In this document: positions 9,592-44,550 of the stretch, in pieces | How positions within the stretch are numbered: the stretch's first letter is position 1 | Layout: each line of letters opens with the position of its first letter | Source: Thiomicrorhabdus indica | GTDB lineage: Bacteria; Pseudomonadota; Gammaproteobacteria; Thiomicrospirales; Thiomicrospiraceae | DNA: 64,000 nucleotides | Assembly: GCF_004293625.1 (NCBI RefSeq) | Contig: NZ_CP033040.1 | Span: 1,178,001-1,242,000, forward strand | Direction of reading: 5' to 3' | Program-made: the position numbers and the translations under genes | Notes under the pieces: model-generated | What the model was told of the DNA's origin: nothing | Databases searched by the model: none | The model's input: only the letters and a program-made list of their open reading frames with translations

Positions 9592-9629
9592 AAAAACCAC
9601 CGACTGGGAAACCGGCCGGTGGTTTTTTT
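9592..9629 (+). terminator. Bidirectional terminator containing ACCGGCCGGT
   Basis: AAAAACCACCG (9592-9602) pairs with CGGTGGTTTTT (9617-9627), leaving a 14-base loop, with a T run on the plus strand and an A run before the stem, so it can act in both directions between the convergent protease and DUF2062 genes. The right arm uses the second half of an ACCGGCCGGT copy at 9611-9620. Confidence 0.8.
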
Positions 9630-10309: not shown

Positions 10310-13102
10310 ATGTTATTTAGAGTTTTTGTTATTGCTTGGCTATTGGCAACCTGTGGGTTTTATGAACTTTCAGAATTGCCAGACAGTCGTCTCATGATTG
10401 CAATAAGTGCCATCATGATTTTTTTAATCGTTATTGCTTGGAAAACTTCCAGAAAATCTCAAACCGGTAGAGGGTCGATTTACTTATCCGGTTCTTTGAC
10501 AGGCATTATGATTAGTTTTTCCCTTGGGTTCATTATAGGCATCTGTTATCTCTATTGGCACGCTTTTTTTTCAATCAAATTACCCAATGACGTATTTGAC
10601 CGGCCGGTAATTATTCAAGCGCAAATTTCTGAACTGCCTATTTGGCAAGAAATGTCTTCATTGAAGCAGAAAAATACTCGCACATCTCGCCAAAAGCTTC
10701 GTTTACAAATGAAGCTAAAACAGATGGTGTTATTTGAAAATTCTACAGATGAAACCAAGTGGATTCATGTGGATCAAGGACTGAGAGTTCCAGAGATTCA
10801 AGTTAACTGGTATTTGAGTCAACACATGCAAGCTGAAGATTTTGGTTTGCAGCATTGGCCTAGATTAGGCGAGACAGTGTGGTTAAGCGTGAAGCTGAAA
10901 GCGCCGAGAGGACAATCGAATCCTGGTGCTTTTGATTATGATCGTTATCTTTTTGCCAAAGGCATTCAAGCAAAAGGTTATGTAAAAGGCTTAACTTTGA
11001 ATCATTGGCATCGCTTTCAAAGAGATGTGGCTGACAGAGGCGAGCTCATAGCTTTCAATCCTGTGAACATGAATTCGAGTAAGAACTCTGTTTTGGCGAT
11101 TGCCGATTCCAACCTTTTCACGGGATTTTACAACTCTAGAACACAGTTACAAACACATTTGCAAAATCTGTTTGCAGGTTCAATGTTTTTTCCAGTAATC
11201 GAAGCGTTGACTTTGGGTGAACGTGCAACGGTTTCACAAGAGGATTGGGAGTTATTTCGCAAAACAGGCACTATTCATTTGATGGCAATTTCAGGATTGC
11301 ACATTGGTCTAGCAGCATTATTTGGCTGGTTGTTTTTCTGGGTTTTTTGGAAGTTAATTTTCTACCGTTTTCGGGTTGTTGATCTTTGGTTGTTTGCAAA
11401 GATTGGTGCGCTTCTCAGCGCCACTCTGTACGCGTTTTTATCAGGTTTTTCAATTTCGACAGAGCGTGCTTGGATAATGGTCATTATTGGGCTGTTATTT
11501 CTGGTTTGGCAGCGGCCATTTTCGGTTTGGAACGCATTTTTTGTTGCCTTATGGTTCGTGATCTTTTTTCAGCCATCTGCGGTGTTAATGCAAGGTTTCT
11601 GGTTGTCTTTTTTAGCGGTTGCATGGATATTTATCTTTTTACCCGTGTTAGTCAATAAATCGAAATGGCAACAATTTCTTTGGATTCAGCTTGTATTAAG
11701 TTTGGCTCTAGTACCTGCATTAGCCCATTTTTTTGGTGCAATTCCAAGTTTTGGATTTGTTGCTAATCTGATAGCACTTCCGGTTATTTCTTTTATCGTG
11801 ATGCCTTTATTATTTATTGTTTTAATTGGCTTGCTTGTGTTTCCAGAACATTTGCATGAATCTTTTAGGCCTGTGGTGACTTTGTTGGATTGGGTGTTGA
11901 AGTGGCTTTGGCAATGGTTGGAGTGGGTCTCTGAGTGGCCAAATAGTCTGTTCGAAGTTCCTTCGATTGATGGCTTGTGGGTGTTACTTATTTATGGAGT
12001 GGCGTTTTATATTGTGCAGAATTGGGTTCAAAGTAAACAAACAATTGCGCAACGGTTTAGTCACTTATCGACCAAACAACGCAATAGTTGGCGACATTAT
12101 CTAACACGATTGAAACATATTGAGGATATTGAGCACATTAAAAAACGTTGTTTTGTACAGAACGCTGTTTTATGGCTAGTCGTATTTGTTGGATGTGTTG
12201 TTGTAATCATTCATTATTTCATGCCCAATGAAAAGCCAAAGAAGCAAGAAGCTTTGCTGACGGTATTGGATGTTGGCCAAGGGTTAAGTGTGGTGGTTGA
12301 AACTAACAACAAAGTACTTGTGTATGATTTAGGGGCTTATTGGGGCGAAAAAATGGACGGTGCTAAGCTTGCTGTGCTTCCCTATTTAAACTCTAGAAAC
12401 ATTGATTCAATTGATCAGCTTGTCATTAGTCATTCTGATAATGATCATGCAGGAGGTTTGCAAACCTTATTAACCCAAATTGCTATCGGTAATGCTTTAA
12501 GTGGTCAGCCTGAAAAGTTGGGTGTGAACCTTCCAAATACTGTTTTATCTCAATGCGTTGCAGGACAAAATTGGGTTTGGGAAAGTATTCAATTTGAAAT
12601 AGTAGCCCCTTTACCTGAATGGCTTAAACGGCCCAATTTAAGCGATAACGATTTTTCATGCGTATTAAAAATCTCGACCGGCCGGTCGCAAGTTTGGTTG
12701 ATGGGAGATTTAAGCACTCGTTATGAAAACCAGCTTTTGAAAGCATTGAGTGAAGAAGATACGGCTTTCCAAACAACCGAAATGCATTCAGAGATGAGAA
12801 GACAAGCATTGCTGGTTGCAGGGCATCATGGCAGTCGTTATTCAAGTGGCGAGGATTGGCTAAGTGCTGTAAAGCCAACCTTTGCAATCATTTCAGCCGG
12901 ATATAAAAATCGTTATGACTTTCCTCATGAAGACGTTCTACATAGATTTGAATCGCATTCAACGCGAGTTTTGAATACCGCACATAGTGGTGCAATACAG
13001 TTTGGTATAAAACCTGAAGGCATTGAGTTGTTGAATCGAAATCGAATCGAACAAACAAAATGGTATTATCACTCCAGTTTTTCTCACACAAAGATTGAAT
13101 AA
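10310..13102 (+). CDS. comEC: DNA internalisation competence protein ComEC/Rec2
   Basis: ComEC forms the inner-membrane channel for single-stranded DNA entry during natural transformation. The 930-aa protein shows N-terminal hydrophobic spans, a DUF4131-like soluble OB region (residues ~80-250), the Competence membrane domain beginning HLMAISGLHIGLAALFGW, and a C-terminal metallo-beta-lactamase-like domain with LTVLDVGQGLSVVVET, ISHSDNDHAGG and AGHHGSRYSS. All metal-ligand motifs appear intact. It overlaps nothing but is followed directly by lpxK (TAA then ATG). Two ACCGGCCGGT copies lie inside, at 10599 (RPV) and 12677 (TGR). Its presence makes DNA uptake plausible, although pilus genes are not in the window. 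Confidence 0.93.
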   Translation: MLFRVFVIAWLLATCGFYELSELPDSRLMIAISAIMIFLIVIAWKTSRKSQTGRGSIYLSGSLTGIMISFSLGFIIGICYLYWHAFFSIKLPNDVFDRPVIIQAQISELPIWQEMSSLKQKNTRTSRQKLRLQMKLKQMVLFENSTDETKWIHVDQGLRVPEIQVNWYLSQHMQAEDFGLQHWPRLGETVWLSVKLKAPRGQSNPGAFDYDRYLFAKGIQAKGYVKGLTLNHWHRFQRDVADRGELIAFNPVNMNSSKNSVLAIADSNLFTGFYNSRTQLQTHLQNLFAGSMFFPVIEALTLGERATVSQEDWELFRKTGTIHLMAISGLHIGLAALFGWLFFWVFWKLIFYRFRVVDLWLFAKIGALLSATLYAFLSGFSISTERAWIMVIIGLLFLVWQRPFSVWNAFFVALWFVIFFQPSAVLMQGFWLSFLAVAWIFIFLPVLVNKSKWQQFLWIQLVLSLALVPALAHFFGAIPSFGFVANLIALPVISFIVMPLLFIVLIGLLVFPEHLHESFRPVVTLLDWVLKWLWQWLEWVSEWPNSLFEVPSIDGLWVLLIYGVAFYIVQNWVQSKQTIAQRFSHLSTKQRNSWRHYLTRLKHIEDIEHIKKRCFVQNAVLWLVVFVGCVVVIIHYFMPNEKPKKQEALLTVLDVGQGLSVVVETNNKVLVYDLGAYWGEKMDGAKLAVLPYLNSRNIDSIDQLVISHSDNDHAGGLQTLLTQIAIGNALSGQPEKLGVNLPNTVLSQCVAGQNWVWESIQFEIVAPLPEWLKRPNLSDNDFSCVLKISTGRSQVWLMGDLSTRYENQLLKALSEEDTAFQTTEMHSEMRRQALLVAGHHGSRYSSGEDWLSAVKPTFAIISAGYKNRYDFPHEDVLHRFESHSTRVLNTAHSGAIQFGIKPEGIELLNRNRIEQTKWYYHSSFSHTKIE

Positions 13103-14203
13103 ATGAGTTGGCCGGATTTTTGGACACAAACCAATTGGAAAACGCTTTGTCTGCAACCACTCTCAAAGTTGGTCTGTCGAATTGCAAGCAGGCGGAGGTT
13201 AGCATTTCAGGAAGCTTCAGGGCTTAAGGTTGCAGAGGACTGTCTTCCGGTTTGTGTGATTGGCAATATTGTGGTCGGGGGCAGTGGAAAAACACCATTC
13301 ATTCTCGCGTTGGTTAAGGCGGCACAGATGCAAGGGTTGAAACTCGGTATTGTCAGTCGCGGCTACGGAGGGAAATCAAAACAGTGGCCGCAGCGAGTTT
13401 ACGCTGATAGTGATCCAAACCTTGTTGGCGATGAACCGGTGATGCTTGCCAGAGCGTTGCAGCAATTTCATATACCCATTGCGGTTGCTCCAAAGCGCCA
13501 ACAAGCGGTTGAGCTTTTAAGTCAACAAACAGATTGCGATTGGATCATCAGTGATGATGGGTTGCAGCATTATCAAATGTCTCGTGTTTGTGAGATTGTT
13601 TTGGTCGATGGCGCGAGAGGTTTTGGCAATGGTCATTGTTTACCGGCCGGTCCATTACGTGAACCGGTAGAAAAACTTAAGCAGGTTGATGCGTTGGTGG
13701 TAAATGGTGAGGATCAACAGAAGATTTTAACGAATTTAGAAACGAGTTCTGATGGACAAGCTTTGTTGCCAAAGTTGATAGGGACGATGCAACTGACTCC
13801 TATCCGTTTGGTGAATGTGGTGGATGAAACACAAACTTTACCCATTGATGAATTGGCAAATCACTCTGTAAATGCAATGGCAGGAATTGGCAACCCTGAA
13901 CGCTTTTTTGAAACCTTGGTTCAACTCGGTGCGCAGGTTTCACCACATCCCTTTGCAGATCATCATGCGTATTCGTTTTCGGATTTAAAACCCTTTGCAG
14001 GTTTAAGACAAGACAAAGAGAAGGTTACAAATTTAGATTCAATCAATAATGCGTTAATAATGACCGAGAAAGATGCGGTAAAATGCCGCTCAATTGCGCA
14101 ACAATTGTCAGTCAAGCACTGGTGGTATTTGCAGGTCGAGTCAGAGGTTGATTCGGCAATCTTGACGCATATTTTCAACAAAATGGCACAAGCACCTAGA
14201 TAG
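13103..14203 (+). CDS. lpxK: Tetraacyldisaccharide 4'-kinase
   Basis: LpxK phosphorylates the 4' position of the lipid A disaccharide at the inner membrane. The P-loop VGNIVVGGSGKTP (in this protein IGNIVVGGSGKTP), the RGYGGKS motif, GDEPVMLA and ISDDGLQHYQ are all recognisable. The ATG follows the comEC stop without a gap, so translation is probably coupled. At 366 aa the length is slightly long. The C-terminus NKMAQAPR is peculiar: the DNA coding for it is repeated 31 bp downstream in another frame, suggesting a recent tandem duplication near the stop. The order lpxK-Trm112-kdsB is widely conserved in gammaproteobacteria. The ACCGGCCGGT at 13642 is read as PAG. Confidence 0.94.
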   Translation: MSWPDFWTQTNWKTLCLQPLSKLVCRIASRRRLAFQEASGLKVAEDCLPVCVIGNIVVGGSGKTPFILALVKAAQMQGLKLGIVSRGYGGKSKQWPQRVYADSDPNLVGDEPVMLARALQQFHIPIAVAPKRQQAVELLSQQTDCDWIISDDGLQHYQMSRVCEIVLVDGARGFGNGHCLPAGPLREPVEKLKQVDALVVNGEDQQKILTNLETSSDGQALLPKLIGTMQLTPIRLVNVVDETQTLPIDELANHSVNAMAGIGNPERFFETLVQLGAQVSPHPFADHHAYSFSDLKPFAGLRQDKEKVTNLDSINNALIMTEKDAVKCRSIAQQLSVKHWWYLQVESEVDSAILTHIFNKMAQAPR

Positions 14204-15753: not shown

Positions 15754-15993
15754 TAAGCTGATTTGTTGTTTGAATACTTGTGGTAGTAGCGATTGCGCTT
15801 TTCTCAAAATATACCGGCCGGTCGCAGTGTTATAAAGAGTGAAAATCCTGTCTAAGCATTGTTGATCAAAATTATTAATGATTATTTAAGATAAATTTAT
15901 TATCTTCACTTTTTGTTAAGAATTAAATCTAGTCTTTTACCGGCCGGTAATTGATAATACTTCTCGTTTTTAATGAATAGTTGAGTATTACAA
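15754..15993 (+). other. Leader of the DUF3817 gene with two palindrome copies
   Basis: AT-rich spacer holding ACCGGCCGGT at 15813-15822 and 15939-15948, 126 bp apart. Neither is followed by a T run. They could be leader elements of the downstream gene or simply members of the dispersed palindrome family. Confidence 0.5.
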
Positions 15994-18241: not shown

Positions 18242-18985
18242 GGGTTCCCTTTATGTTATTTAACATTTAATGTCATTCAAGCAGAAGACGCTTATTGTAA
18301 CGATTGTCATCAATTCACTGAAAAATTCTTAATCAAGACCCAGAAAACTGCGGTTGAATTTTCTTGATTTTGACATGTCATAAAAGTTTCACAGAGCTTG
18401 TGGTATTTAATTGATTAATATTTTACATTTGTTACTTAACTCGTTGAATAAATATATTATTTTTTTAATTTTATGAAGAGATTGATTGAATGAATTCATT
18501 CACAAATGCTGTGGATAACTTAAGGATAATCCTGTGGTAAAAAAACCTAAGTGAATGATATTAAAAAATTTATTGTGTATCGAACCGATGGTGCTTAAAT
18601 TTTAAGCACATGAGGCCGTGGGATTTCTGACCGGCCGGTAAAATTCTTGAACGTCTCATTTCAAATGAATTTATCGGAAATGCGACTTAATGTTTTAAAT
18701 GTATGATTTTTAAAGTGTAAAAAAGTTCGTTTATGCCTCGTATAGAATTTTTCAATAGAACCTATTTTGTATGATAAATGTCTGTATTGATATTTATCTA
18801 TAGGTTCTGTAGAAAGCTTCAATAAGCTTGAAACATCCTGCATGGTTATAATGAAAAACACTTGATTTTTGAGTGATGGATTAAGTTCAAAGACAAAGAG
18901 CTCTGCCTTGGAGAGTTCAGTCAAATTAAATTAATGGCGTTCGCCTGCCATAACAATTCAAAGTTTCAAAGATAAGGTTTTATCA
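18242..18985. other. Long non-coding leader region upstream of dabB
   Basis: About 740 bp between the divergent MscS and dabB genes, very AT-rich, without a convincing ORF. It contains a perfect palindrome TGACATGTCA at 18371-18380 and ACCGGCCGGT at 18630-18639. In known sulfur oxidisers, dab operons respond to carbon limitation and often have a LysR-type regulator gene nearby; none is found here. The length suggests the promoter, and perhaps a regulated leader, lie here. Confidence 0.5.
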
Positions 18986-19039
18986 ATGCTTAAACCGAAA
19001 TCCGTTGAACACAATGAAAAGGAGAAGAAGGCGTTATGA
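18986..19039 (+). CDS. Possible 17-residue leader peptide overlapping the dabB start
   Basis: ATG at 18986, preceded by AAGG, reads MLKPKSVEHNEKEKKAL and stops at TGA within the ATGA that begins dabB. It is highly charged and soluble. The 4-base overlap would couple its translation to dabB. Size alone gives weak evidence; the dabB ribosome site (AAGGAG) lies inside this frame and explains part of the Lys/Glu-rich composition. Confidence 0.3.
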   Translation: MLKPKSVEHNEKEKKAL

Positions 19040-20592
19040 CTAGTGCATGGATTGGGTCGTTGTTGCTGTTAGCAATTCCGGCTATGTTTTTTATCAGTGC
19101 TTGGGCGCATGAGAGACGTGCGAATTGGCAACTGACAATGGGGGTTGCAGTTACCGCATTGGTTATTAGCATTTCATCGGGTGTTTTAGCCATTGCTGGA
19201 TGGGTGGAGTTTGGCCACGGTTTTGATTGGGTGACACATGAGCCTGTCAGTTTGGTGATGTTGAGTTTAATCAGCTTTATTTCCTATATTAACGTTCGCT
19301 ACTCGCGATCTTATATGGCTGGCAACGGAGAAGAGGAACGACGCTACATTCGTTGGCTATCCATTACACTTGGATTTGTGACGTTGGTGGTCGTTTCAAA
19401 TCACATGTTGATGATGGTAGTCGCTTGGATAGGTATTTCTGTCGCGTTGCATCAGTTATTGATTTTTTACCCAGAACGTCAACGAGCGGTTTTAGCCGCA
19501 CATAAGAAATATATTTTCGCGCGAATTGCAGAGGGCTTTTTATTGGCTGGCGTAGTGATTTTGTATTTCCAACATGATTCTTGGCTAATTTCTGACATCT
19601 ATGACAATTTAAGTCAAGCACAAGGGCTGTCTTATGCTGACCAGTTTGCAGCATTGTTTTTAGCGGTTGCGGCGCTGGTTAAGTGTGCCCAATTACCGCT
19701 TCATGGTTGGTTAATCCAAGTGGTGGAAGCGCCTACACCGGTTTCAGCTTTGTTACACGCAGGGATTATTAACCTAGGTGGATTCTTGATGATAGTGTTT
19801 GCACCATTGTTGATTCTTTCCAGCGCTGCTCAATGGTTGTTGTTAATCATTGGTGGACTCACCACTGTGTTAGCGGCTTTAGTCATGATGACCCGTGCTA
19901 CGGTGAAAGTGCGTTTAGCCTGGTCGACCATGTCGCAAATGGGGTTGATGTTGGTTGAGTGTGCTTTGGGACTTTTTGAACTCGCGTTACTGCATTTGAT
20001 TGCTCACTCGTGTTACAAAGCCTATGCGTTTTTGAATTCCGGTTCGGAAGTAGAAGCAACTATGAAAAAACGCCTAGCGAAGTCGACTCCTCCAAGTCGT
20101 TTTGACTGGTGGATGGCGGCAATTTTAGCGTCCGGTTTGGTGATAGCTTTGATTATGGCCTTTGCATTGCCGGCACCTTATAGCCCTTGGATTTTATTAG
20201 CGATTGCTTTGACTTTATTAATTGCTGAACGTCGTGGTCGTTTAACTTCCGCTTCGGTGTTATCAATGGTTGCGCTTGCAGCGGTATTGTTGGTGGCTTA
20301 TAGCTTACAAAAGATGGGCGTTCACTTTATTGTTGAGCCTCAAGCAACGTCAGTTGGTTTGGCAGGGGATGTGTGGATGGCATTTTTATTTGTGATGTTC
20401 TTTATTGGTTATATTTTATTGCGTTATCACAGAGATCATCCTGCTATGGCGGCAACTTGGCGTGCCTTCTATGCTGGTTTCTATTTGGATGAATATGTCA
20501 CGCGATTGAATTTACGTTTGTACCCAACAAGACTACCCGTTCGATTTAAACCGAAACATCTGAAAATTCCAAAAGAGGAGCTATTCAAGTGA
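19036..20592 (+). CDS. dabB: Inorganic carbon transporter subunit DabB
   Basis: A 518-aa polytopic protein of the proton-conducting NuoL/MrpA-like family. Conserved signs are ALVKCAQLPLHGWL with the membrane Lys, EAPTPVSALLHAGIINLGG, and RLAWSTMSQMGLM. In the DAB (DabAB accumulates bicarbonate) system DabB couples cation movement to DabA, which hydrates CO2 to bicarbonate at the cytoplasmic face. The protein lacks other Nuo partners in its neighbourhood and overlaps dabA, which separates it from complex I. The ATG is preceded by AAGGAGAAGAAGG. The stop TGA overlaps the dabA GTG. Confidence 0.93.
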   Translation: MTSAWIGSLLLLAIPAMFFISAWAHERRANWQLTMGVAVTALVISISSGVLAIAGWVEFGHGFDWVTHEPVSLVMLSLISFISYINVRYSRSYMAGNGEEERRYIRWLSITLGFVTLVVVSNHMLMMVVAWIGISVALHQLLIFYPERQRAVLAAHKKYIFARIAEGFLLAGVVILYFQHDSWLISDIYDNLSQAQGLSYADQFAALFLAVAALVKCAQLPLHGWLIQVVEAPTPVSALLHAGIINLGGFLMIVFAPLLILSSAAQWLLLIIGGLTTVLAALVMMTRATVKVRLAWSTMSQMGLMLVECALGLFELALLHLIAHSCYKAYAFLNSGSEVEATMKKRLAKSTPPSRFDWWMAAILASGLVIALIMAFALPAPYSPWILLAIALTLLIAERRGRLTSASVLSMVALAAVLLVAYSLQKMGVHFIVEPQATSVGLAGDVWMAFLFVMFFIGYILLRYHRDHPAMAATWRAFYAGFYLDEYVTRLNLRLYPTRLPVRFKPKHLKIPKEELFK

Positions 20593-23129
20593 TCAGTGCA
20601 AAAGAGAATTCGAAAAATGATTTGTCTCAATTGGCACAGCCATTGGCTCCGGTGTTAAATGAGGCGCATCTCGAAAAATTAACTGAAGCCAGTGAACGTA
20701 TTGCTCCGACTTGGCCATTAGATGAATTGATTGCGGTAAACCCTTGGTGGGAAATGCGTCAACAGTCTTTTGCTGACGTCTCAGCAAAATTGGAGGCGTT
20801 GAGTCAGGCGCATTGCCTGATGCCAAAAACCTATTTTCAAAATGTTTGGCTAGAGACCATTCAACCTCACCACTTGGAACAGGCAAAAGCAGAATTGGGC
20901 CATGATGAGCTTACGGTTGCTCAGTTAGAGCGTTATCTGATTGAAGATGATGATTACACGCACTGGCATAATGTCAGTGATTTTGTTGACTCAGGGCGTG
21001 ACCGAAAATACAAAATGGCTTGGCGTGATGAAATCACTCATCAAATCTCACAATTTTGTGCCGATTATTTTCGTGATCGACCTCAGAATGTCTGTTACGA
21101 CAAACATTATGAAGGTTTATATTCTGCTTGGTTAGATACTACCCGTCACGATATGGGGATTGAAATCCTTATGGCGGAAGATGGCCTAACCGAGCAATTT
21201 GAAGGTTTGCCGGAGTCCTCTGAAGATTTAATTGCACAGGCAATTACAGAATTGGGGATTCAGGAAAACCAACTGGCAGATTATGCACATGCACTTTTGT
21301 TAGATGTGAATGGTTGGGCCTCTTGGGTTGCGTATTTACGCTGGCAGGATCGATTAAATGACTGTGAAAACCATTTAATGATGGATTTCTTAGCGATGCG
21401 TTTTGCTTGGGAATTAGTGTTGTGGCGTCATCAAAAAGAAACCGGCCGGTCGGTGTTTAATGAGTTGAAAGTTATGTGGCGCTCCCAATTGGCAATGTTG
21501 CCGAAATTGATTGAAGCACACAAAGAGACTCAACAAAAAGCTTGGATTTGGCAACGTGCAGCGGAGATGGCCTATCAATCGCATTTGCATGAACGTCTTC
21601 GTTTTGCGAGCATTAATTTACACCCGGGCAGTGATGAAGTCGACGGAGAGATTCCAACGCAAAAATTCCCGTTGGAAAAACATGTGAAAAATCCACTGAC
21701 AGAAACCCCGTTAATTCAAGCGGCCTTCTGTATTGATGTGCGCTCGGAGGTTTATCGTCGTGCTTTAGAAGCTCAGCATCCTCGTATTCAAACGCTTGGT
21801 TTTGCCGGATTTTTTGGGTTACCCATTGAGTTTCAGCCAATGGGGTCGGATGTTTCTCGTCCTCAGTTGCCAGGGCTATTGCGTTCAGCCATTAAGGTGA
21901 CTCCATTAACGGGGAAGGAGAAACTGACCAAAACCAAAGATAAGTTGAATAAAAAAGCGCGTTGGTCTGAGTGGGGTTATGCGCCTCCTGCAACCTTTAG
22001 CATGGTGGAAGCAACGGGTGTATTGTATGCCTTTAAGTTGTTGAAAAACAGTATGTTTCCAGCAAGTCATAAGCATCCAGTTAATGATTTACCTTTGACG
22101 AATGACTTTGAAATTACTGAAAATGGCAAACCGTTAGGTTTAGAGAAAAAAGTCGAACTGGCTGGAAAAATCTTGCATGCGATGGGGTTGGATAAAAATC
22201 TTGCGCCGAAAGTTTTGCTTGTTGGGCATGGTTCGAGTTCTTGCAACAATCCACATGCAGCTGGTCTGGATTGCGGTGCCTGTGGAGGCCAAACTGGTGA
22301 AGTGAATGTTCGCGTTTTGGCGTTATTACTGAATGAGCTTGATGTTCGAGATGGTTTAGCGAAACAAGGTGTTGTGATTCCAAAAGAGACGCGTTTTATA
22401 GCTGCGATGCATAATACAACCACTGATGATGTCAGTTTTTACTCTGATGCGGTGGATGAGCAAATGAGCGTTTGGTTTGAACAGGCCTCTGATTTATGTC
22501 GTCAAGAGCGTTCAACACGTTTAGGTTTAACGCACTTAGACGGTCAGGCCTTGCATTCAGCGATTAAATATCGCGCACGAGATTGGTCACAAGTTCGTCC
22601 TGAATGGGGTTTGTCGGCAAATGCGGCTTTTATTGTGGCTCCGCGCTGGAGAACGCGAGGGGTTGATTTTGACGGTCGAGTTTTCTTGCATGATTACGAC
22701 CATTTTGAAGATGAAGATAGAAGCTTGTTAACTTTGATTATGACTGCTCCAATGGTCGTGGCAAATTGGATTAACCTGCAATATTATGCGTCTTCATGTG
22801 ATAACCATATTTACGGAAGCGGTAATAAGGTGCTGCACAATGTGGTCGAAGGTGGCATTGGTGTTTTTGAAGGAAATGGTGGAGATTTGCGAATTGGTTT
22901 AGCCATGCAATCACTTCACAATGGCGAAGACTGGATTCATGAGCCTCTGCGATTAAATGTGTATATTGATGCACCGCGTGATGCTATTGAATCGGTTATT
23001 GAACAGCATGATGCAGTTCGTGAGCTCATAGATAACGATTGGTTGTATCTGTACCGTTGGGGTCGTAAAGGTACGATTGAGCGCTGTTATCAAGGACAGT
23101 GGTTGCCTGCGAAAAAGCCTGTTCAATAA
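20589..23129 (+). CDS. dabA: Inorganic carbon transporter subunit DabA (DUF2309)
   Basis: A DUF2309 protein of 846 aa, the vectorial carbonic-anhydrase-like partner of DabB. Zinc ligands and catalytic residues match those known from Halothiobacillus: Cys381 and Asp383 in FCIDVRSE, His547 in VGHGSSSCNNP, and Cys562 in GLDCGACGG; the 15-residue spacing from His to Cys equals that of the studied protein. The N-terminus starts with a variable helical part, then IAPTWPLDELIAVNPWW. The start is GTG at 20589, overlapping the dabB stop, with GAGGAG upstream. ACCGGCCGGT at 21441-21450 is read as TGR. A double-palindrome terminator follows. Confidence 0.95.
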   Translation: MISAKENSKNDLSQLAQPLAPVLNEAHLEKLTEASERIAPTWPLDELIAVNPWWEMRQQSFADVSAKLEALSQAHCLMPKTYFQNVWLETIQPHHLEQAKAELGHDELTVAQLERYLIEDDDYTHWHNVSDFVDSGRDRKYKMAWRDEITHQISQFCADYFRDRPQNVCYDKHYEGLYSAWLDTTRHDMGIEILMAEDGLTEQFEGLPESSEDLIAQAITELGIQENQLADYAHALLLDVNGWASWVAYLRWQDRLNDCENHLMMDFLAMRFAWELVLWRHQKETGRSVFNELKVMWRSQLAMLPKLIEAHKETQQKAWIWQRAAEMAYQSHLHERLRFASINLHPGSDEVDGEIPTQKFPLEKHVKNPLTETPLIQAAFCIDVRSEVYRRALEAQHPRIQTLGFAGFFGLPIEFQPMGSDVSRPQLPGLLRSAIKVTPLTGKEKLTKTKDKLNKKARWSEWGYAPPATFSMVEATGVLYAFKLLKNSMFPASHKHPVNDLPLTNDFEITENGKPLGLEKKVELAGKILHAMGLDKNLAPKVLLVGHGSSSCNNPHAAGLDCGACGGQTGEVNVRVLALLLNELDVRDGLAKQGVVIPKETRFIAAMHNTTTDDVSFYSDAVDEQMSVWFEQASDLCRQERSTRLGLTHLDGQALHSAIKYRARDWSQVRPEWGLSANAAFIVAPRWRTRGVDFDGRVFLHDYDHFEDEDRSLLTLIMTAPMVVANWINLQYYASSCDNHIYGSGNKVLHNVVEGGIGVFEGNGGDLRIGLAMQSLHNGEDWIHEPLRLNVYIDAPRDAIESVIEQHDAVRELIDNDWLYLYRWGRKGTIERCYQGQWLPAKKPVQ

Positions 23130-23166
23130 GCAGCATTGAAATTCGATTTAAATGTTTGAATAAAGC

Positions 23167-23203
23167 TACCGGCCGGTAAAAGAATACCGGCCGGTATTTT
23201 TTT
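23167..23203 (+). terminator. dabBA terminator made of two ACCGGCCGGT copies
   Basis: TACCGGCCGGTA occurs at 23167-23178 and again at 23185-23196, separated by six bases, followed by seven T residues. Each copy is self-complementary and the pair forms a 12-bp GC-rich stem. It ends the dabBA transcript; it can hardly serve the convergent chemoreceptor gene as no A run precedes the stem. Confidence 0.85.
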
Positions 23204-23208
23204 GTTTT

Positions 23209-25953
23209 TTATTTATGATGATCGCAATCACATCCAAGTAATAAATGTGCTTCATCATGAGAGGTATTTGATTGCTTTGAATCAATCGCAATCACTTGGT
23301 TAATCGTCGCTTTTGTTTGTTCAGGTTTTTCTTCAAAATCGTGTTTAATGGGGCGCAGTTCAGTCTCTTGATGTGAGATCAACGCGTGTTCCAAGTTATC
23401 GATTAATCCCACTACTTGAGCACTCATTTTTTCTAAATTGAGCATTTCACGATTCGCTTCAGCGATTTTACCTTGATCTTTAAGTTTAATGACTTGGCCA
23501 ATAAATTGATGCATTTTGGCGTGCTCTACTTCTAGCTTTTGGTAAGCCGGTAAATGTTCAAATTCGCGGCCAATGCCATAAATCCATTTACCCAATGCAC
23601 ATACTTGACCATTGTCAGCAGAGTTTTTGTCAAAATTGACAGGGATATCATTGATGTAAGCACGAACATTGACACGCCATTGGCGATGCGCGCGTCTTGC
23701 AGCAGCAAAATCGACCTGATTTGAAACAGGCAGGTGAGTGGCTTTTAATATTTCAGGTGCGATTTTAAATTGGTTGACGGTATTACTCATTTGTACGGAC
23801 ATGTTGTTGAGCGAACTGGCAAGCTTGGTAGAGTTATCCAGACGAAGAGTGGTATTGTGCACTTCACGATCAATGCCTTGGATCACCTGCGTCATGGAAT
23901 GGATTTGTTGGCTTTGTTCAAAACTAAAATGCGACAATTCTTCAATGGTCACTTTCACTTGTTCGACGGATTCGGCAATTTCATTCAGAGCATCGCCTGA
24001 ACCTTTGACATTTTGAGTGCCTTCGCCGATTTTTTGCACCGTATCTTCTATTAAAACGCGAATTTGTTGCGAGGCTTCAGCAGATTTCTGAGCTAATGAT
24101 CGAACTTCACTCGCGACGACTGCAAACCCTTTTCCTTGCTCACCCGCACGAGCGGCTTCGACGGATGCATTTAGAGCCAAGAGATTTGTTTGGAAAGCGA
24201 TAGAGTCAATTAGACCAATAATGTCGTGTATTTTCTGGCTTGAATCATGGATTTGTTCCATTGACGAAATGGCATTTTGCATAATATTCATGCCGGATTT
24301 AGCAATGTTGGCTGTATTGGTTGTTAAGTCTGCGGCTTGAGAGGCCTTGTTTGCATTTTGTTCAATCTCTTGTGTCATGGAACGCATGTTTTCAGACGCA
24401 GAATTAAGTGCGTTAGACTGTTGCTGACTGGTTTTAACAAGGTCTTGATTGGTCTCGTAAATGGTTTGAGCTCCTTTTGCTATTTCATCCGAAGAGAGCT
24501 TGGTTTGTGAAAGCATGGAGCTGAGATTTTCAACGGCGACATTCAAGCTATCTTTCAGCAAGAGAAAGCGCCCCATAAAGTTTGATTGGATTTTGTCATC
24601 AAGCTTACCGGCCGATAGGCTGACGGCAATATCAATGGTTTCGTTGATTGGGCGTTCAATGTTGTCGAGTAGGTCATTAATTGTATGACCGAGTTGCATG
24701 GCAATTCCAGACGTTTTACTCAAATCAATACGGTTTTCTAATAAGCCTTCTCGTGCCAGTGTTACTGTGTGGTTGACGTTTTCTAGAAGTTGTCTTTCTG
24801 CAGTTAAGTCTTGCCATTCGACAACAAGATTTTGAACTTGATTGTTACGATTTTTGATTGGAATGATATTGATGCTTAGGGAAAGTGAACCTAATTGAAT
24901 CTCAGCGTGCGTGGGTTCGGTCATTTTTTCAATTCGAGCACGTGTTTGTTTGGGGTGCTGGTGGAAAATATCGATATTGGTTCCGATCAAAGAATCAAAT
25001 TTAAACTCAGGAAGTTCATGCTTAATATGCTCGATACGTTCATGTAAAAAGTTCTGCATTTGCTGGTTCAGATAGGTTATTTCCAGTTTTTCATTGGCGA
25101 TCATAATGTTTGAACTGACTTGATCTAAAGCACTTTGAGCTTGATTCGCTTGGTCTAGGCGGTATTCTGATTCTTCTTGACGGGCATCTAGAATCAATTG
25201 CGCCGATTTCATTGCTCCTTGGACTTGACCTTCAAGTGATTTAGGATGCGCCCAATCAAATTTAATAGGTTCATTGGATGCAATCTTTTTTAGATTCTGG
25301 CAGCGCTGAAGGATTCGTTTGGTTTGATAATGCCCAAACAGCCAAGCAGTACCTAGCGCGAACACCGAAGCTGAGAGCATCTCTGAAAGAGAATGTTGAT
25401 GGTAATAGGCAATGATTAAATATGGGAAAAGGTAGAAGAGTGCGACTAATAGGGTAATTTTATATTTGGGTTCCAGCCGGTTCATTGGATTGATATTCTG
25501 CCAATGTATTCCACTATGAATTTCTCCATGAGAAATTTGTACTTGTTGCGACTCAATCGATCGGTAAGCTTGCTCAGTTGTGGTTATTTCCTCATCAGTC
25601 ACAGCGGTTCGAACTGACATAAATCCTGAGATTTCCCCGTTTTTAAATAGAGGTGTGGCATTTGCTCTCACCCAATAATAACCGCCATCTGCTCGCCGGT
25701 TTTTAACGACTTGGCTCCAAGGTTGGCCTGATTGTAGGGTTTGCCACATATCTTTGAAGATGGCTTTCGGAACGTCGGCGTGACGAACAATATTATGTGC
25801 TGAACCGATAAGTTGTTCCCGAGTAAAACCACTCGCGAGTTCAAATGCATCATTGCAATCAATAATGGTTCCAAAAGTATCGGTTTTTGAAATTAAATTT
25901 ACACCTTGAGGAACTTTATACTCTTGCTGGTTAACAGTTTGCTTTGATGTCAT
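23209..25953 (-). CDS. Methyl-accepting chemotaxis protein with PAS and CZB domains
   Basis: About 914 aa. Order: N-terminal Aer-type PAS domain ([37 protein letters not shown]), two close membrane spans around residues 170-215, a second PAS-like region (~270-390), HAMP, the MCP signalling hairpin ([20 protein letters not shown]), then a C-terminal CZB zinc-binding domain with AHRQW, VCALGKW, and VEHAKMHQF. The tail ends [11 protein letters not shown], a further Cys/His cluster. The N-terminal PAS suggests redox or energy taxis, and CZB suggests zinc-linked sensing. I use the ATG at 25953; an in-frame TTG at 25965 would add four residues. The protein would act at the inner-membrane chemoreceptor array via CheA/CheW. 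Convergent with dabA. Confidence 0.9.
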
Positions 25954-28765: not shown

Positions 28766-31456
28766 TTAGAGTGATTTTGAGACCAACATAATTTGAGGGT
28801 CTTCTTCGCATGTTTGGATAACAAAGCCGTGTAGCTTCGCCAAACTCAACATCCCTTTATTTTGTTTGAGTACTTCACCATTCATAGTTTTGAGTCCTTT
28901 TTGTCGAGCATGATCAATCAGGCTTTCTAAAAGATGGCTGCCAATCCCTTGATGCTGAAAGTCATCTCGAACAACTAACGCAAATTCACAGGAAACGCCA
29001 TCCGGGTTTGTGCTGTAACGGGTTACCCCAATTTCTACCGGCCGGTGATGATCACAACTATAGGCGATAAACGCCATTTCTTGGTCGTAATCAATCTGAG
29101 TAAACTTCACCAGCATTTCCTCGCTCAGTTTCTGGACGTTCTGCATAAAACGCAGGTATTTGGTTTGTTCAGATAAGCTGTTAACGAATTCGGTTTCCAT
29201 TTGAGCATCTTCGGCTTTAATCGGACGGATGTTTACATTCAACCCACTATTTGTCGTGATGGTTTTTTCTAAATAGGAAGGGAAGGGGTGAATTGCCATA
29301 TGAGAATAAGCTGGCGCACCCGGTGCGGTTTTTTGAATTCGAATTCTGGCATCAACTGCAATTGAAACTTTATCGTTTGCGAGCACTGGGTTTAAATCTA
29401 ATTCAATGATTTCTGGGATTTCGCACACCATTTCAGAGATACGAAGCAAAATATTGACGAGCTTATTTCGATCAACCGCTGTGCGCCCTCGGAAAGCCCC
29501 AAGTAATTTATTGATTTTGGTTTTTGAAATCATTCGTTCAGCAATAAACTGGTTAAGAGGTGGCAGTGCGGTACTGCTATCCTTCAAAACTTCTACGCTA
29601 GTTCCTCCGCTCCCAAATGAAATAGCAGGGCCAAATACTGGGTCGCGACTGACACCAATAATCAATTCTCTTGATTCCTCTAATGACATCATTTTTTCAA
29701 TGGTGACACTATGGACGTTTGCATCTGGCACAGCTTGATTGACGGACTCGACTAATTGTTCATAGGCTTCCATTAATCGGTTGGAGTCAGCGATATTTAA
29801 AATTACGCCACCACTGTCGCTTTTGTGAGTGATTTTGTCGGATAGCACTTTCATTGCCACAGGGAAGCCAACGCTTTCTGCTGCGACAATCGCTTCATTC
29901 ACATTATTCGCTTGGATAGCTTGGGTGACCGGAATCTCAAAGGCTCTTAATACTGCACGGGTTTCCAAAGTGTTCAGTAATTCACGTTTTTCTTTAAGCG
30001 CGTTGTGAATAATCAAACGAGCCCCGTGTGGGTCGATTGAATTCAGCTCGGATGGTTCAGGAAGCTGTTTTAAAAGTTTTTGATTACTGTGGTACTGCCC
30101 AATGAAATAAAAAGCCTCAACCGCTGCTTCGGGTGTTGAGAATGTGGGTATGTGGGCGCTTTTGAAAATTTCACGCGCTTCACTGACTAAACTGTGCCCA
30201 AGCCAAGTGGTTAGAATCGGTTTATGTTTTGGGTTATTTTTATCGTTCAGTTCTACAATACTTTTTGCAATTTCAGTTGGGTTAGTCATTGCTTGCGGCG
30301 TGAGTAGTACCAGAACGGCATCATATTCAGGGTCTTCCAAACAGACTTTAATGGCTTTTTGATACCGCTCAGGGTTAGCGTCACCCAAAATATCAATGGG
30401 GTTATGATGCGACCAATGTTTTGGAAGTGTTTCGTCTAAAGCGAGTTTGGTTTTATCACTGACATCAGGCATTGAGATGCCAAGTTCTGCAGCCAAATCG
30501 GTAGCCATTACGCCGGGTCCTCCGCCATTGGTGACAATAGCTAAACGTTTCTGGCGAATATTTAAATCATAAGAAAGGGTTTTTGCTGCCGAGAAAAGCT
30601 GGTTGATGGTCAGCGCGCGAACGACACCGGCGCGTTCAATCGCCGCATTGAAAATATCATCTTTACCGACCAAGGCACCGGTATGGGAAATAGCTGCTTG
30701 TGTTCCTTCAGGCATTCTTCCTGATTTAAGAAGTATGACCGGCTTCATTCGAGCGGCTTTTCGTAACCCACTTAAGAAGCGACGGGCATCTTTGATACCT
30801 TCAATATAAAGCAAAATACTGTGGGTTTTTGAATCGGTTGCTAAATAGTCTAGAATTTCACCGAAGTCTAGGTCTAGTGCATCACCACTTGATGCAACCA
30901 GCGAAAAACCAATGTCATGAGTTTCTGCCCAATCTAATATTCCAGTGCAAAGCGCACCACTTTGAGAAACCAAGGCGAGATGGCCAGCTCGTGCTTGGTT
31001 TTTACTGAAGGTAGCATTCATATTGATTGAAGGGCGGATAATACCCAAGCAATTAGGTCCTAAAATCCGAATTTTATGTTTGTGAGCAGTGTTTAATAGG
31101 CGTTGACGTAAGTTTGCCTGATCATCACTTTCAAATCCGGCAGAAAGAATAATGACATTTGGAATTTTTAACTGCCCGCATTCTTCGATTAATTTGAGTG
31201 CGGTTGTTGCTGGGGTTGCAATGACTACTAACTCGACTTTTGTGTTTTGTTGCTCGTAGAGTTCCGATAAGCTTGGAAAGCATGGCTTGCTCTGCACTTC
31301 AGAGTGTTTTGGATTGATAGCAAATAGATCACCTTGATAACCCGCTGTGAGTAAATTCGCAAAAGCTGTGGCTCCTACTGAGTCTTCTCGGTTACTGGCT
31401 CCAACGACCGCAATCGATTTCGGGTTAAAGAACTGGCTTAGATAATGGGGTCCCAT
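28766..31456 (-). CDS. PatZ-like protein lysine acetyltransferase (ADP-forming acyl-CoA synthetase/GNAT fusion)
   Basis: An 896-aa multidomain protein. Residues ~1-130 form a CoA-binding Rossmann fold (SIAVVGASNRED), then succinyl-CoA-ligase-like parts with SQSGALCTGILDWAE and AAISHTGALVGKD, an ATP-grasp-like domain (~490-700; AMKVLSDKITHKSDSGGV), and a C-terminal GNAT acetyltransferase (~720-896; GVSCEFALVVRDDFQHQGIGSHLLESL). PatZ/YfiQ/Pka proteins acetylate enzymes such as acetyl-CoA synthetase. The synthetase half is usually inactive; HTGALVGKD keeps the His that is phosphorylated in active enzymes, so activity remains open. I chose ATG 31456 because GGAG lies 7 bases upstream; a TTG at 31468 would add four residues. 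It is divergent from an HDAC-family gene. Confidence 0.9.
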   Translation of the reverse strand: MGPHYLSQFFNPKSIAVVGASNREDSVGATAFANLLTAGYQGDLFAINPKHSEVQSKPCFPSLSELYEQQNTKVELVVIATPATTALKLIEECGQLKIPNVIILSAGFESDDQANLRQRLLNTAHKHKIRILGPNCLGIIRPSINMNATFSKNQARAGHLALVSQSGALCTGILDWAETHDIGFSLVASSGDALDLDFGEILDYLATDSKTHSILLYIEGIKDARRFLSGLRKAARMKPVILLKSGRMPEGTQAAISHTGALVGKDDIFNAAIERAGVVRALTINQLFSAAKTLSYDLNIRQKRLAIVTNGGGPGVMATDLAAELGISMPDVSDKTKLALDETLPKHWSHHNPIDILGDANPERYQKAIKVCLEDPEYDAVLVLLTPQAMTNPTEIAKSIVELNDKNNPKHKPILTTWLGHSLVSEAREIFKSAHIPTFSTPEAAVEAFYFIGQYHSNQKLLKQLPEPSELNSIDPHGARLIIHNALKEKRELLNTLETRAVLRAFEIPVTQAIQANNVNEAIVAAESVGFPVAMKVLSDKITHKSDSGGVILNIADSNRLMEAYEQLVESVNQAVPDANVHSVTIEKMMSLEESRELIIGVSRDPVFGPAISFGSGGTSVEVLKDSSTALPPLNQFIAERMISKTKINKLLGAFRGRTAVDRNKLVNILLRISEMVCEIPEIIELDLNPVLANDKVSIAVDARIRIQKTAPGAPAYSHMAIHPFPSYLEKTITTNSGLNVNIRPIKAEDAQMETEFVNSLSEQTKYLRFMQNVQKLSEEMLVKFTQIDYDQEMAFIAYSCDHHRPVEIGVTRYSTNPDGVSCEFALVVRDDFQHQGIGSHLLESLIDHARQKGLKTMNGEVLKQNKGMLSLAKLHGFVIQTCEEDPQIMLVSKSL

Positions 31457-32663: not shown

Positions 32664-32865
32664 AGTATGTCTGAAATAAAAGATACCGGCCGGTGAATAA
32701 TGTCTGTGCTTTAAAATCGATTTAGGTTAACTGAATGGTTAAGTGTTAAGATTATTACTGGTTATTTATACGTAGTCATTGCTAAATTGAAATTAGAGCG
32801 TATGGCTTTGTTGTTTCTCCATTTTTCAAGAAGAAAAAATTTATGCCTGACAAGTTGGACCGATT
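32664..32865 (+). other. Leader of the Cache/GGDEF-like sensor gene
   Basis: AT-rich spacer with ACCGGCCGGT at 32685-32694 just after the MITE. No hairpin with T run is evident. It presumably contains the promoter of the sensor gene. Confidence 0.4.
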
Positions 32866-34800
32866 ATGAGCATTTCATCTCAAACTATTTTTTCCTGCTT
32901 GAAAGCCCAGCAGATGCGTGAATTGCAAACAGCAATTGTCATAGGCGTTTTACTGGTTTTGTCGATTATGTTTATAAATATTGGTTTTTGGGCTTTTGAT
33001 AAAAATCAAAATTTAGCAGAAATTGAAATTAAATCAGCTAAAAAAATTGTTACTCACGAAGCTGAGCTTCTGAATCAACGTATTGAAGGGCTGGTGATTC
33101 TTGCTGAAACGCTAGCAAAATCCCCATTTTTAATTGAAAAAGTACAAGCAAGCAATCAAAAATACATTGGTCTCTCTTCTGAAAAAATCAACCAAAGTAT
33201 TCAAAAACTCGACATTCGGTGGCGTGAATCGAACGAGGCCACAGAATTTGTAAAATCTTATCTGCAAAATCACACATCAACTTTTTTGAAACAGATGCAG
33301 ACAGTTTTTTCAGAGGGTTATGGAGAGATTTTTGCAACGAACCTGCATGGTGAAATGATTGGGACAACAGGGAAGTTGACAACGCTTGCCCATAGATCGA
33401 AATATTGGTGGCAAGGCGCATTTAATCAAGGCTCACCGAGAGTTTTTATTGATGATAGAGGCTTTGATTTTAGTGTTAGAGACTTTGTCATAGGTGTGGT
33501 GGTTCCCATATGGAATGACGATAAGTTTCTGGGGATTTTAAAAGCTAATTTTCGTATGAATACGGTTCACTCTTCCAACTTAATCAAGCTCCCTGATTAC
33601 AAGCAGCAGCGTATACGTTTGGTTCGCGCTTCAGGTGAAGTGATGCCTGTCCAAAAACAAGGGCTGGAATTCAGTCAGCCTAATGAGCATTTATCAGAAA
33701 AAGAACGTCAGGCGCTGAGCTCTAAAAATTTCTATAGTAGTTATTATAAAAATAACGGTGTAACGCATTTAGCTGTAGCGGCGCCCGTTGAAATTTCTTG
33801 GCGTGACGATGAGAACTTGGTCTTTGGCGGCAAAAAATCAGGAATTGACCAATATAAAGGCAATGATTCGGAAGGGTGGTTTTTAGTTGTAGATTTGGTA
33901 CCGTCCCAAACATTTGGCAGCCTTTTGTTACAACCTCAAGTTGCTATGTTATTGGCGAGTTTCATTCTTGTTCTTTTAATGGGTGCTTGGCTGTTATTGA
34001 AATACCGTTCGAACCTTCTCGCGATTCGCCAACAAATTTCAACGGTTATGGCGTTGGATGATAGCGAGTTTTTGAAGTGGGCAAAAACTCAATCATTCCC
34101 TCAATCATCAAGATTGAAGAAGGATTATTCAAAAGGCTGTTTAGTAAAATCTTCAGAACTGGAAATCGTATTAGAGCAGTTTTTTGAACGACTTCACCGG
34201 TGTTTAACGCATGCAAAAGTTCAGAGTGAGAATTTGAATTATGTAGACGCACAGCTAAAAAATATGCGAGACAGCATGCAAAAAGATTTACTCACTGATT
34301 TAATGAATCGCTCTGAGTTTGAGTTGTGGGTAACACACAACATTGCGCATGTTGTTCGGCACGGTTATCCGTTGTCATTAATCCTGTTAGAAATGGATCA
34401 TTATGAGATTTTGAAGGCACAATATAGACAAGAGTTTGCTGATAAATGGCTACGAAAAGTTGCTGATCTTTTGAAAACACAGAGTCGACAAGATGATATT
34501 TTGGCTCGTGTAAATGAAGCACAGTTTGCTTTACTTTTACCTTCCGCTACCAAAGAGACTGCGTTGAGTCAGGCGAAACGAATTTTAGAGCAAATTCATG
34601 AGATTCAATTGGTTGATTGTTTGTCAGAAGATCACAGTGAAAAAGACTTTAAACACCTTAGAGAAATGGGAAATACTACCGCTTGTATTGGAATCACAGA
34701 GTTCATTAAAGAGGATTCTTTAGAGCAGTTCTTTGGTCGTGTTGAAAGTGCGCTTTATCGAGCAAAAGATAATGGAAGAGACCAAATCTCAGAATTCTAG
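32866..34800 (+). CDS. Cache-domain membrane sensor with degenerate GGDEF domain
   Basis: 644 aa: an N-terminal span (residues ~20-42), a large periplasmic region with dCache features (FIDDRGFDFSVRDFVIGVVV), a second span (~365-385), then a GGDEF-like domain (~475-644) starting LLTDLMNRSEFE. The signature GG(D/E)EF is replaced by VNEAQ within ARVNEAQFALLLP, so cyclase activity is not expected; the RxxD inhibitory site position reads RQDD. It may act as a c-di-GMP- or GTP-binding receptor or by dimerisation. The extracellular domain probably binds a small ligand such as an organic acid. The gene is monocistronic, with an IS inserted about 38 bp after its stop. Confidence 0.8.
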   Translation: MSISSQTIFSCLKAQQMRELQTAIVIGVLLVLSIMFINIGFWAFDKNQNLAEIEIKSAKKIVTHEAELLNQRIEGLVILAETLAKSPFLIEKVQASNQKYIGLSSEKINQSIQKLDIRWRESNEATEFVKSYLQNHTSTFLKQMQTVFSEGYGEIFATNLHGEMIGTTGKLTTLAHRSKYWWQGAFNQGSPRVFIDDRGFDFSVRDFVIGVVVPIWNDDKFLGILKANFRMNTVHSSNLIKLPDYKQQRIRLVRASGEVMPVQKQGLEFSQPNEHLSEKERQALSSKNFYSSYYKNNGVTHLAVAAPVEISWRDDENLVFGGKKSGIDQYKGNDSEGWFLVVDLVPSQTFGSLLLQPQVAMLLASFILVLLMGAWLLLKYRSNLLAIRQQISTVMALDDSEFLKWAKTQSFPQSSRLKKDYSKGCLVKSSELEIVLEQFFERLHRCLTHAKVQSENLNYVDAQLKNMRDSMQKDLLTDLMNRSEFELWVTHNIAHVVRHGYPLSLILLEMDHYEILKAQYRQEFADKWLRKVADLLKTQSRQDDILARVNEAQFALLLPSATKETALSQAKRILEQIHEIQLVDCLSEDHSEKDFKHLREMGNTTACIGITEFIKEDSLEQFFGRVESALYRAKDNGRDQISEF

Positions 34801-34838
34801 ATAGAAGATAGACTAGATAGAGTTAGATAATTAAATAA

Positions 34839-35546
34839 GGGGCTGTCCTAGATAACTAGTTCAGTTCCTTTTTAACCCATTGATTCAATTGCTTTAATTG
34901 TTTTTTTGGGTCACTGTTGTTAAATCGCCATTCACACTCTTTCAAAAACAAATGAAATGACTCTTTTGGAATGCCATTAAATTTACGCATATGCCGTTTT
35001 GCTTGGTTCCAAAAATTCTCAATACCATTGATGTGGTTTGCTTTATTAGCAAACAATTCACTGTGGTTAATTCTGTAATGCTTAAATTCCGATACATCTA
35101 GCGCGTTATAACTTCGCCAAGTATCTGTATAAACAATGCTGTCGGGTTTGACTTTTTCGCGAATTATTGGAATTAATGTGTCTGTTTTGGCATCAGGTAT
35201 AACAACCGTATAAACCTTGTCATTTCGCTTTAAAAGGCCAAATACAGGGACTTTTCCTGCCGCACCCCGACCACGTTTACCTTTACGCCTTCCACCAAAG
35301 TAACTTTCATCCGCTTCAACTTCACCTTCAAGTAACTCATGGTGTTCACTATTGTCATAAATCAACTGACGTAGACGTTGAAAATAATAACTTGCAGTCG
35401 TTTTATTTACACCGACAAGCGATGCAGCAGTTCGAGCAGTTGTCCCTGCGACAAACAGTTCTATCAACTTACTTTGTTTGTACCAACTGATTCTACTTTT
35501 TCTCATAGTGCCATCTTAGATAATTTTGGTTATCTAGGACAGCCCC
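34839..35546 (-). mobile_element. IS1595-family (IS1016-like) insertion sequence
   Basis: 708 bp with perfect 18-bp inverted repeats, GGGGCTGTCCTAGATAAC at 34839-34856 and its complement at 35529-35546. Both flanks carry the 8-bp duplication TTAAATAA (34831-34838 and 35547-35554), the size expected for IS1595 elements. It contains one intact transposase gene. Perfect ends, duplication and ORF imply a recent insertion, in an intergenic region after the sensor gene. Confidence 0.92.
34856..35506 (-). CDS. IS1595-family transposase
   Basis: 216 aa. An N-terminal helix-turn-helix (AASLVGVNKTTASYYFQRL) is followed by an ISXO2-like DDE/N domain with Asp66 in EADESYFGGRRKG, Asp128 in IVYTDTWRSYN, and Glu163-Asn164 in HINGIENFWNQAK. 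It cuts and pastes its own IS and possibly related short elements. No frameshift is present. Its stop lies only in the terminal repeat (34856), which is normal for compact IS1016-type elements. Confidence 0.93.
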   Translation of the reverse strand: MRKSRISWYKQSKLIELFVAGTTARTAASLVGVNKTTASYYFQRLRQLIYDNSEHHELLEGEVEADESYFGGRRKGKRGRGAAGKVPVFGLLKRNDKVYTVVIPDAKTDTLIPIIREKVKPDSIVYTDTWRSYNALDVSEFKHYRINHSELFANKANHINGIENFWNQAKRHMRKFNGIPKESFHLFLKECEWRFNNSDPKKQLKQLNQWVKKELN

Positions 35547-35633
35547 TTAAATAAAATCATTCTTATAAAGATTTGGAGATTGGACTAAGTTGGAAGTTTG
35601 CCGGCCGGTAGAGCATTACGGGCCGGTAAAGTT

Positions 35634-37756: not shown

Positions 37757-37856
37757 GAAAAGGGCCTTTTTCCGGAAGCTTGAAATACAGACAATTTAAC
37801 TTTGAATATTGTACAAAACCTAATTCTGCTGAAAACGCATTTAATGTGACAAATTT

Positions 37857-44496: not shown

Positions 44497-44517
44497 GGGC
44501 GTGCTATTCGTTTTATC

Positions 44518-44540: not shown

Positions 44541-44550
44541 AGGCTTAGAA

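Follow-up and report, generated by a model that had tools for sequence, protein, structure and literature searches.

Paired copies of an abundant palindrome as the probable stem of the dabA terminator in Thiomicrorhabdus indica

The dabA gene of Thiomicrorhabdus indica, a sulfur oxidiser, is followed by a hairpin whose two arms are copies of one palindromic word, and this site (23167–23203 of the window, i.e. the whole 64,000-nucleotide stretch of DNA analysed) is quite probably a Rho-independent terminator, and most likely one instance of the genome-wide co-option of an uptake-like word. Side-by-side copies just past a gene very probably fold into a hairpin that ends the transcript. In the explanation proposed, the RNA past dabA would consist of UACCGGCCGGUA, a loop and UACCGGCCGGUA again, and the 12-bp stem ahead of a U run would stop the transcript. 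Close copies would be kept almost only past gene ends because a strong hairpin there is useful or harmless; some pairs would also have acquired a U-tail and act as intrinsic terminators, and others probably just cap mRNA 3′ ends or shield them. The abundance of the copies would have a separate cause, most likely self-DNA recognition in natural transformation with species-specific dialects, and their use in termination would be secondary.

If this is right, a free-living chemolithoautotroph is a further case in which a link between an uptake-like word and terminators has arisen, and its word is palindromic and comes in dialects. A general question also becomes testable, that of whether terminators are made from abundant self-complementary words or such words accumulate in terminators that already exist. 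From a practical perspective, the word would predict gene ends in the genus and is a candidate tag for the transformation of these CO2-fixing bacteria.

The hairpin that follows dabA

Two exact copies of ACCGGCCGGT, at 23168–23177 in the ascending arm and at 23186–23195 in the descending arm, are the arms of one stem (exact match in the window), the whole reading TACCGGCCGGTA, a 6-nt loop, TACCGGCCGGTA and then TTTTTTT (+ strand; stem 23167–23196, T-tail 23197–23203). The stem has 12 bp when the flanking T and A are included, and the stability of its fold (−23.8 kcal/mol, z −5.17) was matched by none of 200 shuffles. It begins 38 nt past the stop codon of dabA (20589–23129, +; PF10070, E 1e-245), upstream of which, in the same gene run, is the gene for a dabB-like antiporter subunit (19036–20592, +; PF00361), and a converging chemoreceptor-like gene (23209–25953, −; PF00015) has its stop 13 nt beyond the end of the stem. 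When the interval 23000–23400 was scanned for consensus terminators, two sites were returned, both being this hairpin, one on each strand (mean in shuffles 0.4). The tails are TTTTTTTGTT in the + reading and GCTTTATTCA in the − reading, the strong tail being on the + strand only. The pair thus has the anatomy of an intrinsic terminator, i.e. a stable GC-rich hairpin with an adjoining T run shortly past a stop codon.

The initial annotation, made from sequence alone, had described the dabBA terminator as two copies six bases apart plus a T run. The copies and the T run are as described; the six bases are the gap between the 12-mers, that between the 10-mers being 8 nt. Its gene names are borne out by domain matches, PF00361 for the dabB-like antiporter, PF10070 for DabA, and PF00291 together with PF00585 for the threonine dehydratase gene ilvA, considered below.

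Pairs at gene ends and the tails behind them

There are 1025 exact copies of ACCGGCCGGT in the 2,829,883-bp genome, which has the reversed word once, and 24 of the copies are in the 64-kb window; for CCGGCCGG the window count is 28 and the count in shuffles 0.23. About 10 bp of the word are conserved, with A/T-rich flanks about this core. Placement was assessed in a 730-kb sample made up of the window and 34 stretches picked to include every pair, with genes called by a purpose-made finder (612 genes, 86% coding), so that the placements of pairs and copies given here rest on gene ends of its own calling. The single copies of the sample (n = 208) are distributed over genes (122), tandem gaps (48), convergent gaps (24) and divergent gaps (13), with one at the edge of a stretch, the corresponding densities per kb being 0.19, 0.87, 1.78 and 0.47. 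Their occurrence both within genes (122/208) and between them (85/208), at a higher density in the latter, is as for the uptake sequences of other bacteria (USS/DUS).

Genome-wide, 44 pairs have 0–30 nt between the two copies and 4 have 31–61. Uniform placement would give 11.5 in each of these gap ranges, and class-specific densities, which take account of denser intergenic packing, 21.6 at gap 0–30; with these Poisson baselines the excess of pairs is not rested on the larger ratio. Five pairs go back to a single duplicated segment, and when they are collapsed the 40 pairs left are still far above 11.5. (These five, at 477752, 486540, 540636, 762300 and 1964917 of the chromosome, G000:C1, have a common loop and flanks, and a large repeated-domain gene adjoins.) The gap is 7–11 nt in 18 pairs and 13–16 in 16, i.e. 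34 of the 44 are within 7–16, and none is below 7.

The placement of the 44 pairs is one-sided. The gene calls put 23 of them into tandem gaps and 19 into convergent ones and leave the divergent gaps empty; the other 2 fall inside called genes. By length, the 42 that are intergenic would be expected to divide 24.1, 5.9 and 12.1 over tandem, convergent and divergent gaps, respectively. The intergenic proportion itself, 42/44, compares with 85/207 for single copies (p = 3e-12). The median distance from stop codon to pair is 31 nt (n = 61), and it is 60 nt or less in 53 of the 61. Enrichment of pairs at gene ends, on which the reading of them as terminators had been staked, is thereby confirmed.

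Repeats of another class might be placed in this way too. REPs are extragenic, and REP/BIME-like elements mobilised by a transposase of the Y1 type (RAYT) would, as here in T. indica, give many palindromic copies that are paired at gene 3′ ends and absent from divergent gaps. With PF01797 unmatched in the genome, 122 of the 208 single copies of the sample inside genes, and a conserved stretch of only ~10 bp, such an origin is most improbable.

The sequence behind the stems bears on how many pairs are terminators in the classical sense. Read in the transcribed direction, the 8 nt that follow the stem contain at least 5 T in 18 of the 42 intergenic pairs and at least 6 in 15, the dabA pair included. 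The latter threshold is reached by 7/23 tandem pairs against 3/48 tandem single copies (p = 0.010), and by 11/38 sides of convergent pairs against 4/48 single-copy sides (p = 0.020). In tandem gaps of T. indica alone the T count is 4.13 in gene direction versus 3.30 in the opposite direction, a difference that is not significant (one-sided p = 0.13); with four species pooled (n = 59) the values are 3.90 and 3.20 (p = 0.009). The features usual in intrinsic terminators, GC stem, short loop and T-tail, are present at dabA and in about 40% of pairs; what differs is that the stem is set by a genome-wide word and that many pairs are without a T-tail. The designation 'classical terminator' holds for about 40% of pairs, the remainder being gene-end hairpins, since a T-tail (at least 5 of 8) is found in 18/42 only. 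The initial proposal that terminators are assembled from the iterated palindrome is upheld for the dabA site and as a genome-wide tendency, and is less secure for the pairs beyond those 18.

The shortage of T behind the stem in 24 of the 42 intergenic pairs (fewer than 5 in 8) would be natural if pairs served mainly to stabilise mRNA 3′ ends or to mark the edge of the transcript, with termination occurring elsewhere or by Rho and the T-tails a by-product in a minority. Also in keeping with this is a gene end in the relative G010, that of the upstream gene of pair 1034236, which is without a predicted intrinsic terminator, a hairpin being visible there by eye. Nevertheless, the dabA pair and 14 others (15/42) do have at least 6 T in 8 in the transcribed direction, and pairs are followed by richer T-tails than single copies are, making this a rather unlikely account of the pairs as a whole. 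With termination by the tailed pairs preferred, the tail-less pairs are strong post-gene hairpins, acting perhaps in tail-poor termination or in 3′-end protection.

A crude predictor applied to the 430 gene ends of the sample gave 138 terminators, 21 of them with at least two exact copies and 12 with one; the fraction 21/138 overstates the genome-wide share because the sample was picked to hold every pair.

Bases outside the word are informative as to what is selected. The outer flanks of T. indica pairs co-vary, with 143 paired against 123.0 (p = 0.010); for the inner flanks the effect is not significant (p = 0.09). In the relative G004, whose word is different, 177 outer positions are paired versus 138.1 in partner shuffles (p = 1e-4) and 65 inner ones versus 46.1 (p = 2e-4); 20/24 are paired at the first inner base, versus 8.2. 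No covariation was found for the pairs of G001 and G006, in which the flanks hardly vary and there is little power. Flank covariation points to selection on the hairpin, not on two independent sites. The two preferred gap classes, 7–11 and 13–16 nt, might be thought to reflect paired operator-like sites bound by a dimeric protein, the RNA hairpin then being incidental; with divergent gaps, those from promoter to promoter, devoid of pairs, and with the G004 covariation and the T-tails indicating a hairpin, this is very unlikely.

A lone copy could in principle fold on itself (ACC-GGCC-GGT plus complementary flanks). A perfect flank run of at least 5 is present in 4 intergenic single copies and in no genic one, and the mean run exceeds that of shuffles in two classes, the tandem gaps (p = 0.0045) and the divergent gaps (p = 0.038), not in convergent gaps or genes; flank pairing of single copies over 8 positions is above shuffles in no class. 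Self-hairpins of single copies are a minor possibility.

Dialects in relatives and the origin of the word

Among 62 genomes of the family, ACCGGCCGGT is abundant in T. indica (G000) only, the next highest counts being 15, 15 and 14. A different word, CAGGCCTG, is abundant in 15 of the 31 relatives in the genus, at 236–1173 copies each, and has 12 copies in T. indica. In a survey of over-represented words in 20–60 kb from each of 21 relatives, other words were found with the GGCC centre in common. These GGCC-centred dialects are those of G007, G011, G012, G001, G006, G029, G028, G002, G021, G026, G027, G004 and G003 (L069–L102). Flanks included, most of these genomes have ACCAGGCCTGGT and G021 has AGCAGGCCTGCT; the word of G026 and G027 is AACAGGCCTGTT-like, that of G003 AACAGGCCGGGT-like. 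GGCC-centred words in quantity were found neither in T. marina and G010 nor in several others of those surveyed.

Three minor observations belong here. The G003 word, AACAGGCCGGGT, resembles a CAGG-type half-site joined to a CCGG-type one (10 places listed in 40 kb). The whole genomes of T. marina (G008) and G010 have 15 copies of ACCGGCCGGT each, versus 3 and 2 of the reversed word, possibly a remnant or the start of the T. indica dialect in near relatives. The top words in G031 (L085/L086), TATAAGAGGT and its overlaps, have 15 occurrences each and seem to belong to a repeat array of local extent, not to an iterated genome-wide word.

Close pairing is replicated with the other word. Over the 15 CAGGCCTG genomes, 261 close pairs are observed versus 124.9 expected; the number is above expectation in 14 of the 15, with p < 0.05 in 8, and below it in G014, the excess not being significant in 7/15. 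Tandem or convergent gaps hold 33/34 of the pairs in G004, 20/22 in G001 and 11/12 in G006 (where placement covers 12 of its 19 pairs), in sum 64/68 after gene ends. Relative to gap length, this placement is significant in G004 and G001, not in G006 (p = 0.26). The preference for gene ends is therefore shared by relatives that use a different word.

As to the order of events, 63 query ends were compared with stretches of G010 and T. marina, from which 11 orthologous ends were obtained that represent 9 pair sites; the G010 stretches had been placed by mirrored gene order, with most off target. The word is at none of these 11 ends. The predictor gave a terminator at 8 of them, 2 being doubtful on account of long irregular stems (pairs 265992 and 2022015). 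In both relatives, an ordinary terminator with an unrelated stem stands at a similar distance behind dabA. From these unrelated stems, the terminator slot at dabA looks older than the word that occupies it, an age that we infer, since the motif-free state of T. marina and G010 could also reflect loss. To the general question raised above, the dabA end contributes an instance favouring the slot as older than the word there.

That terminators can be made from uptake-type words is already known; what appears to be new here, as far as a search of open-licence literature goes, is a palindromic word with dialects in this lineage. In Pasteurellaceae and Neisseria, pairs of USS or DUS act as terminators, and the uptake word is reported in 17–29% of Pasteurellaceae terminators and in about 55% of those of Neisseria (Kingsford et al. 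2007, PMC1852404). T. indica has in common with those systems (PMC1852404) short copies numbering ~1000, gene-end hairpin pairs and tail-to-tail enrichment. Preferred spacings there are ~8 and 19–22 nt, those in T. indica being 8–9 and 14–16 between 10-mers, and T-tails there track gene direction, which here is so only in the four-species pool (PMC1852404). Against the percentages just given, the word is in 33/138 predicted hairpin terminators of T. indica, a fraction from a crude predictor and a pair-enriched sample. The T. indica word is, unlike USS and DUS, a palindrome, and any two neighbours can consequently pair, with no orientation rule.

Dialects have a counterpart in Neisseriaceae, where one DUS variant is abundant in each of several related species and where inverted DUS pairs are tied to terminators in all dialects (Frye et al. 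2013, PMC3630211). Thiomicrorhabdus is of another phylum class and its word is another one. Its dialects differ symmetrically about the GGCC centre, and ~9 of the relatives examined are without any dialect word. The features shared with USS/DUS are, then, the 1025 copies, the A/T-rich flank extension, close inverted pairs at gene ends, dialects and the competence gene comEC. ComEC is not discriminating, since of the 28 of 32 genus genomes that have it, T. indica included, some are without either word. The analogy to Haemophilus and Neisseria that had been drawn at the outset is a close one of anatomy, in the enrichment at gene ends and in tail-to-tail regions, in preferred spacings and in dialects, with uptake a putative role. 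By this analogy, the chance that uptake-like recognition maintains the word is put at about one half. A search of open-licence literature gave no report of uptake sequences in Thiomicrospira or Thiomicrorhabdus, and, among the matches listed, none of the letters of the word.

Iterated GC-rich palindromes of cyanobacteria, HIP1 and the alternate HIPs, are the other pertinent precedent, with alternate words and deviations at the outer bases; the model for them is methylation-based and expects a matching methylase (Elhai 2015, PMC4390886). A HIP1-like word made or kept by DNA methylation and repair, its gene-end pairs being a passive result of looser intergenic constraint, would suit the palindromy and sharpness of the T. 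indica word (296 exact versus 78 one-mismatch copies in the 730-kb sample, 48 of the 78 being mismatched at the outermost base) as well as the alternate words in relatives, which parallel those described for cyanobacterial HIPs (PMC4390886). However, no match to PF00145 or PF01555, the two methylase families searched, was found in T. indica, which weakens the case. In the 15 CAGGCCTG genomes the families are patchy, with PF00145 over cut-off in 7 and PF01555 matched in 4. Looser constraint also leaves unexplained both the 11-fold rarity of gaps of 31–61 relative to 0–30 and the absence of pairs from divergent gaps, and pairing at gene ends is a T. indica feature that does not appear in the portion of the HIP1 account referred to (PMC4390886). 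We regard this origin as doubtful.

If recognition in uptake is instead what maintains the word, Thiomicrorhabdus might be a third, independently evolved lineage with uptake sequences, and the first with palindromic ones, whose copies double as terminator stems; this is advanced tentatively, at slightly under even expectation. Since any two neighbours are complementary, copies would be ready-made stems, and a change of dialect would force genome-wide rewriting of terminators. With similar reserve, and again falling a little short of probable, the words may be viewed as half-sites about GGCC, namely A-CCGG with CCGG-T in T. indica, CAGG with CCTG and GT, CT or TT outside in other dialects, and a mixture of the two in G003.

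Other sites in the window

The terminator at 9592–9629 (+), after a gene for a LonB-like protease (7157–9535), is a good one. The claim that it uses half a copy has to be replaced, in that its descending arm holds one complete copy (9611–9620), and its ascending arm is an imperfect complement and not a copy. Half-copy terminators were considered as a class and rejected. A second copy with up to 2 mismatches is at gap 0–30 from 5 of 208 single copies (convergent gaps 3, tandem 1, genes 1, divergent 0), compared to 6 at gap 31–61; with no excess at the closer range, most pairs are exact-exact or absent.

The pair after ilvA consists of 62695–62704 and 62720–62729 (62695–62729 overall), and lies between ilvA (61146–62687, +) and a converging glutathione-synthetase-like gene (62807–63850, −). 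The distance of 25 bases given originally for these copies is from start to start, the gap being 15 nt. The fold is of −21.7 kcal/mol and the T-tails are weak, with 2/8 and 3/8 T on its two sides, on account of which the pair is a gene-end hairpin and no textbook terminator.

Outside the two pairs the window has 20 exact copies of ACCGGCCGGT. Besides that at 9611–9620, single copies are at 1118–1127, 3722–3731, 4537–4546, 4864–4873, 13642–13651, 15813–15822, 15939–15948, 18630–18639, 29037–29046, 32685–32694, 47231–47240, 47988–47997, 48702–48711, 52896–52905 and 55512–55521, with one within dabA (21441–21450) and one within ilvA (61973–61982). The gene for the DNA-uptake channel, comEC (10310–13102, +; PF03772), which bears on the idea of uptake and is outside the terminator, contains two more (10599–10608 and 12677–12686).

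A degenerate pair at 35600–35627, with one mismatch in each copy and the 8-nt gap of the dabA pair, folds with −27.8 kcal/mol on the + strand and −14.9 on the −. It is within the 14.5 kb from 32685 to 47231 in which there is no exact copy, the chance of this being ~0.005 (uniform placement, for the given interval). The same 14.5 kb includes an IS1595-type transposase ORF (34856–35506, −) and otherwise ordinary genes, e.g. that for phosphofructokinase.
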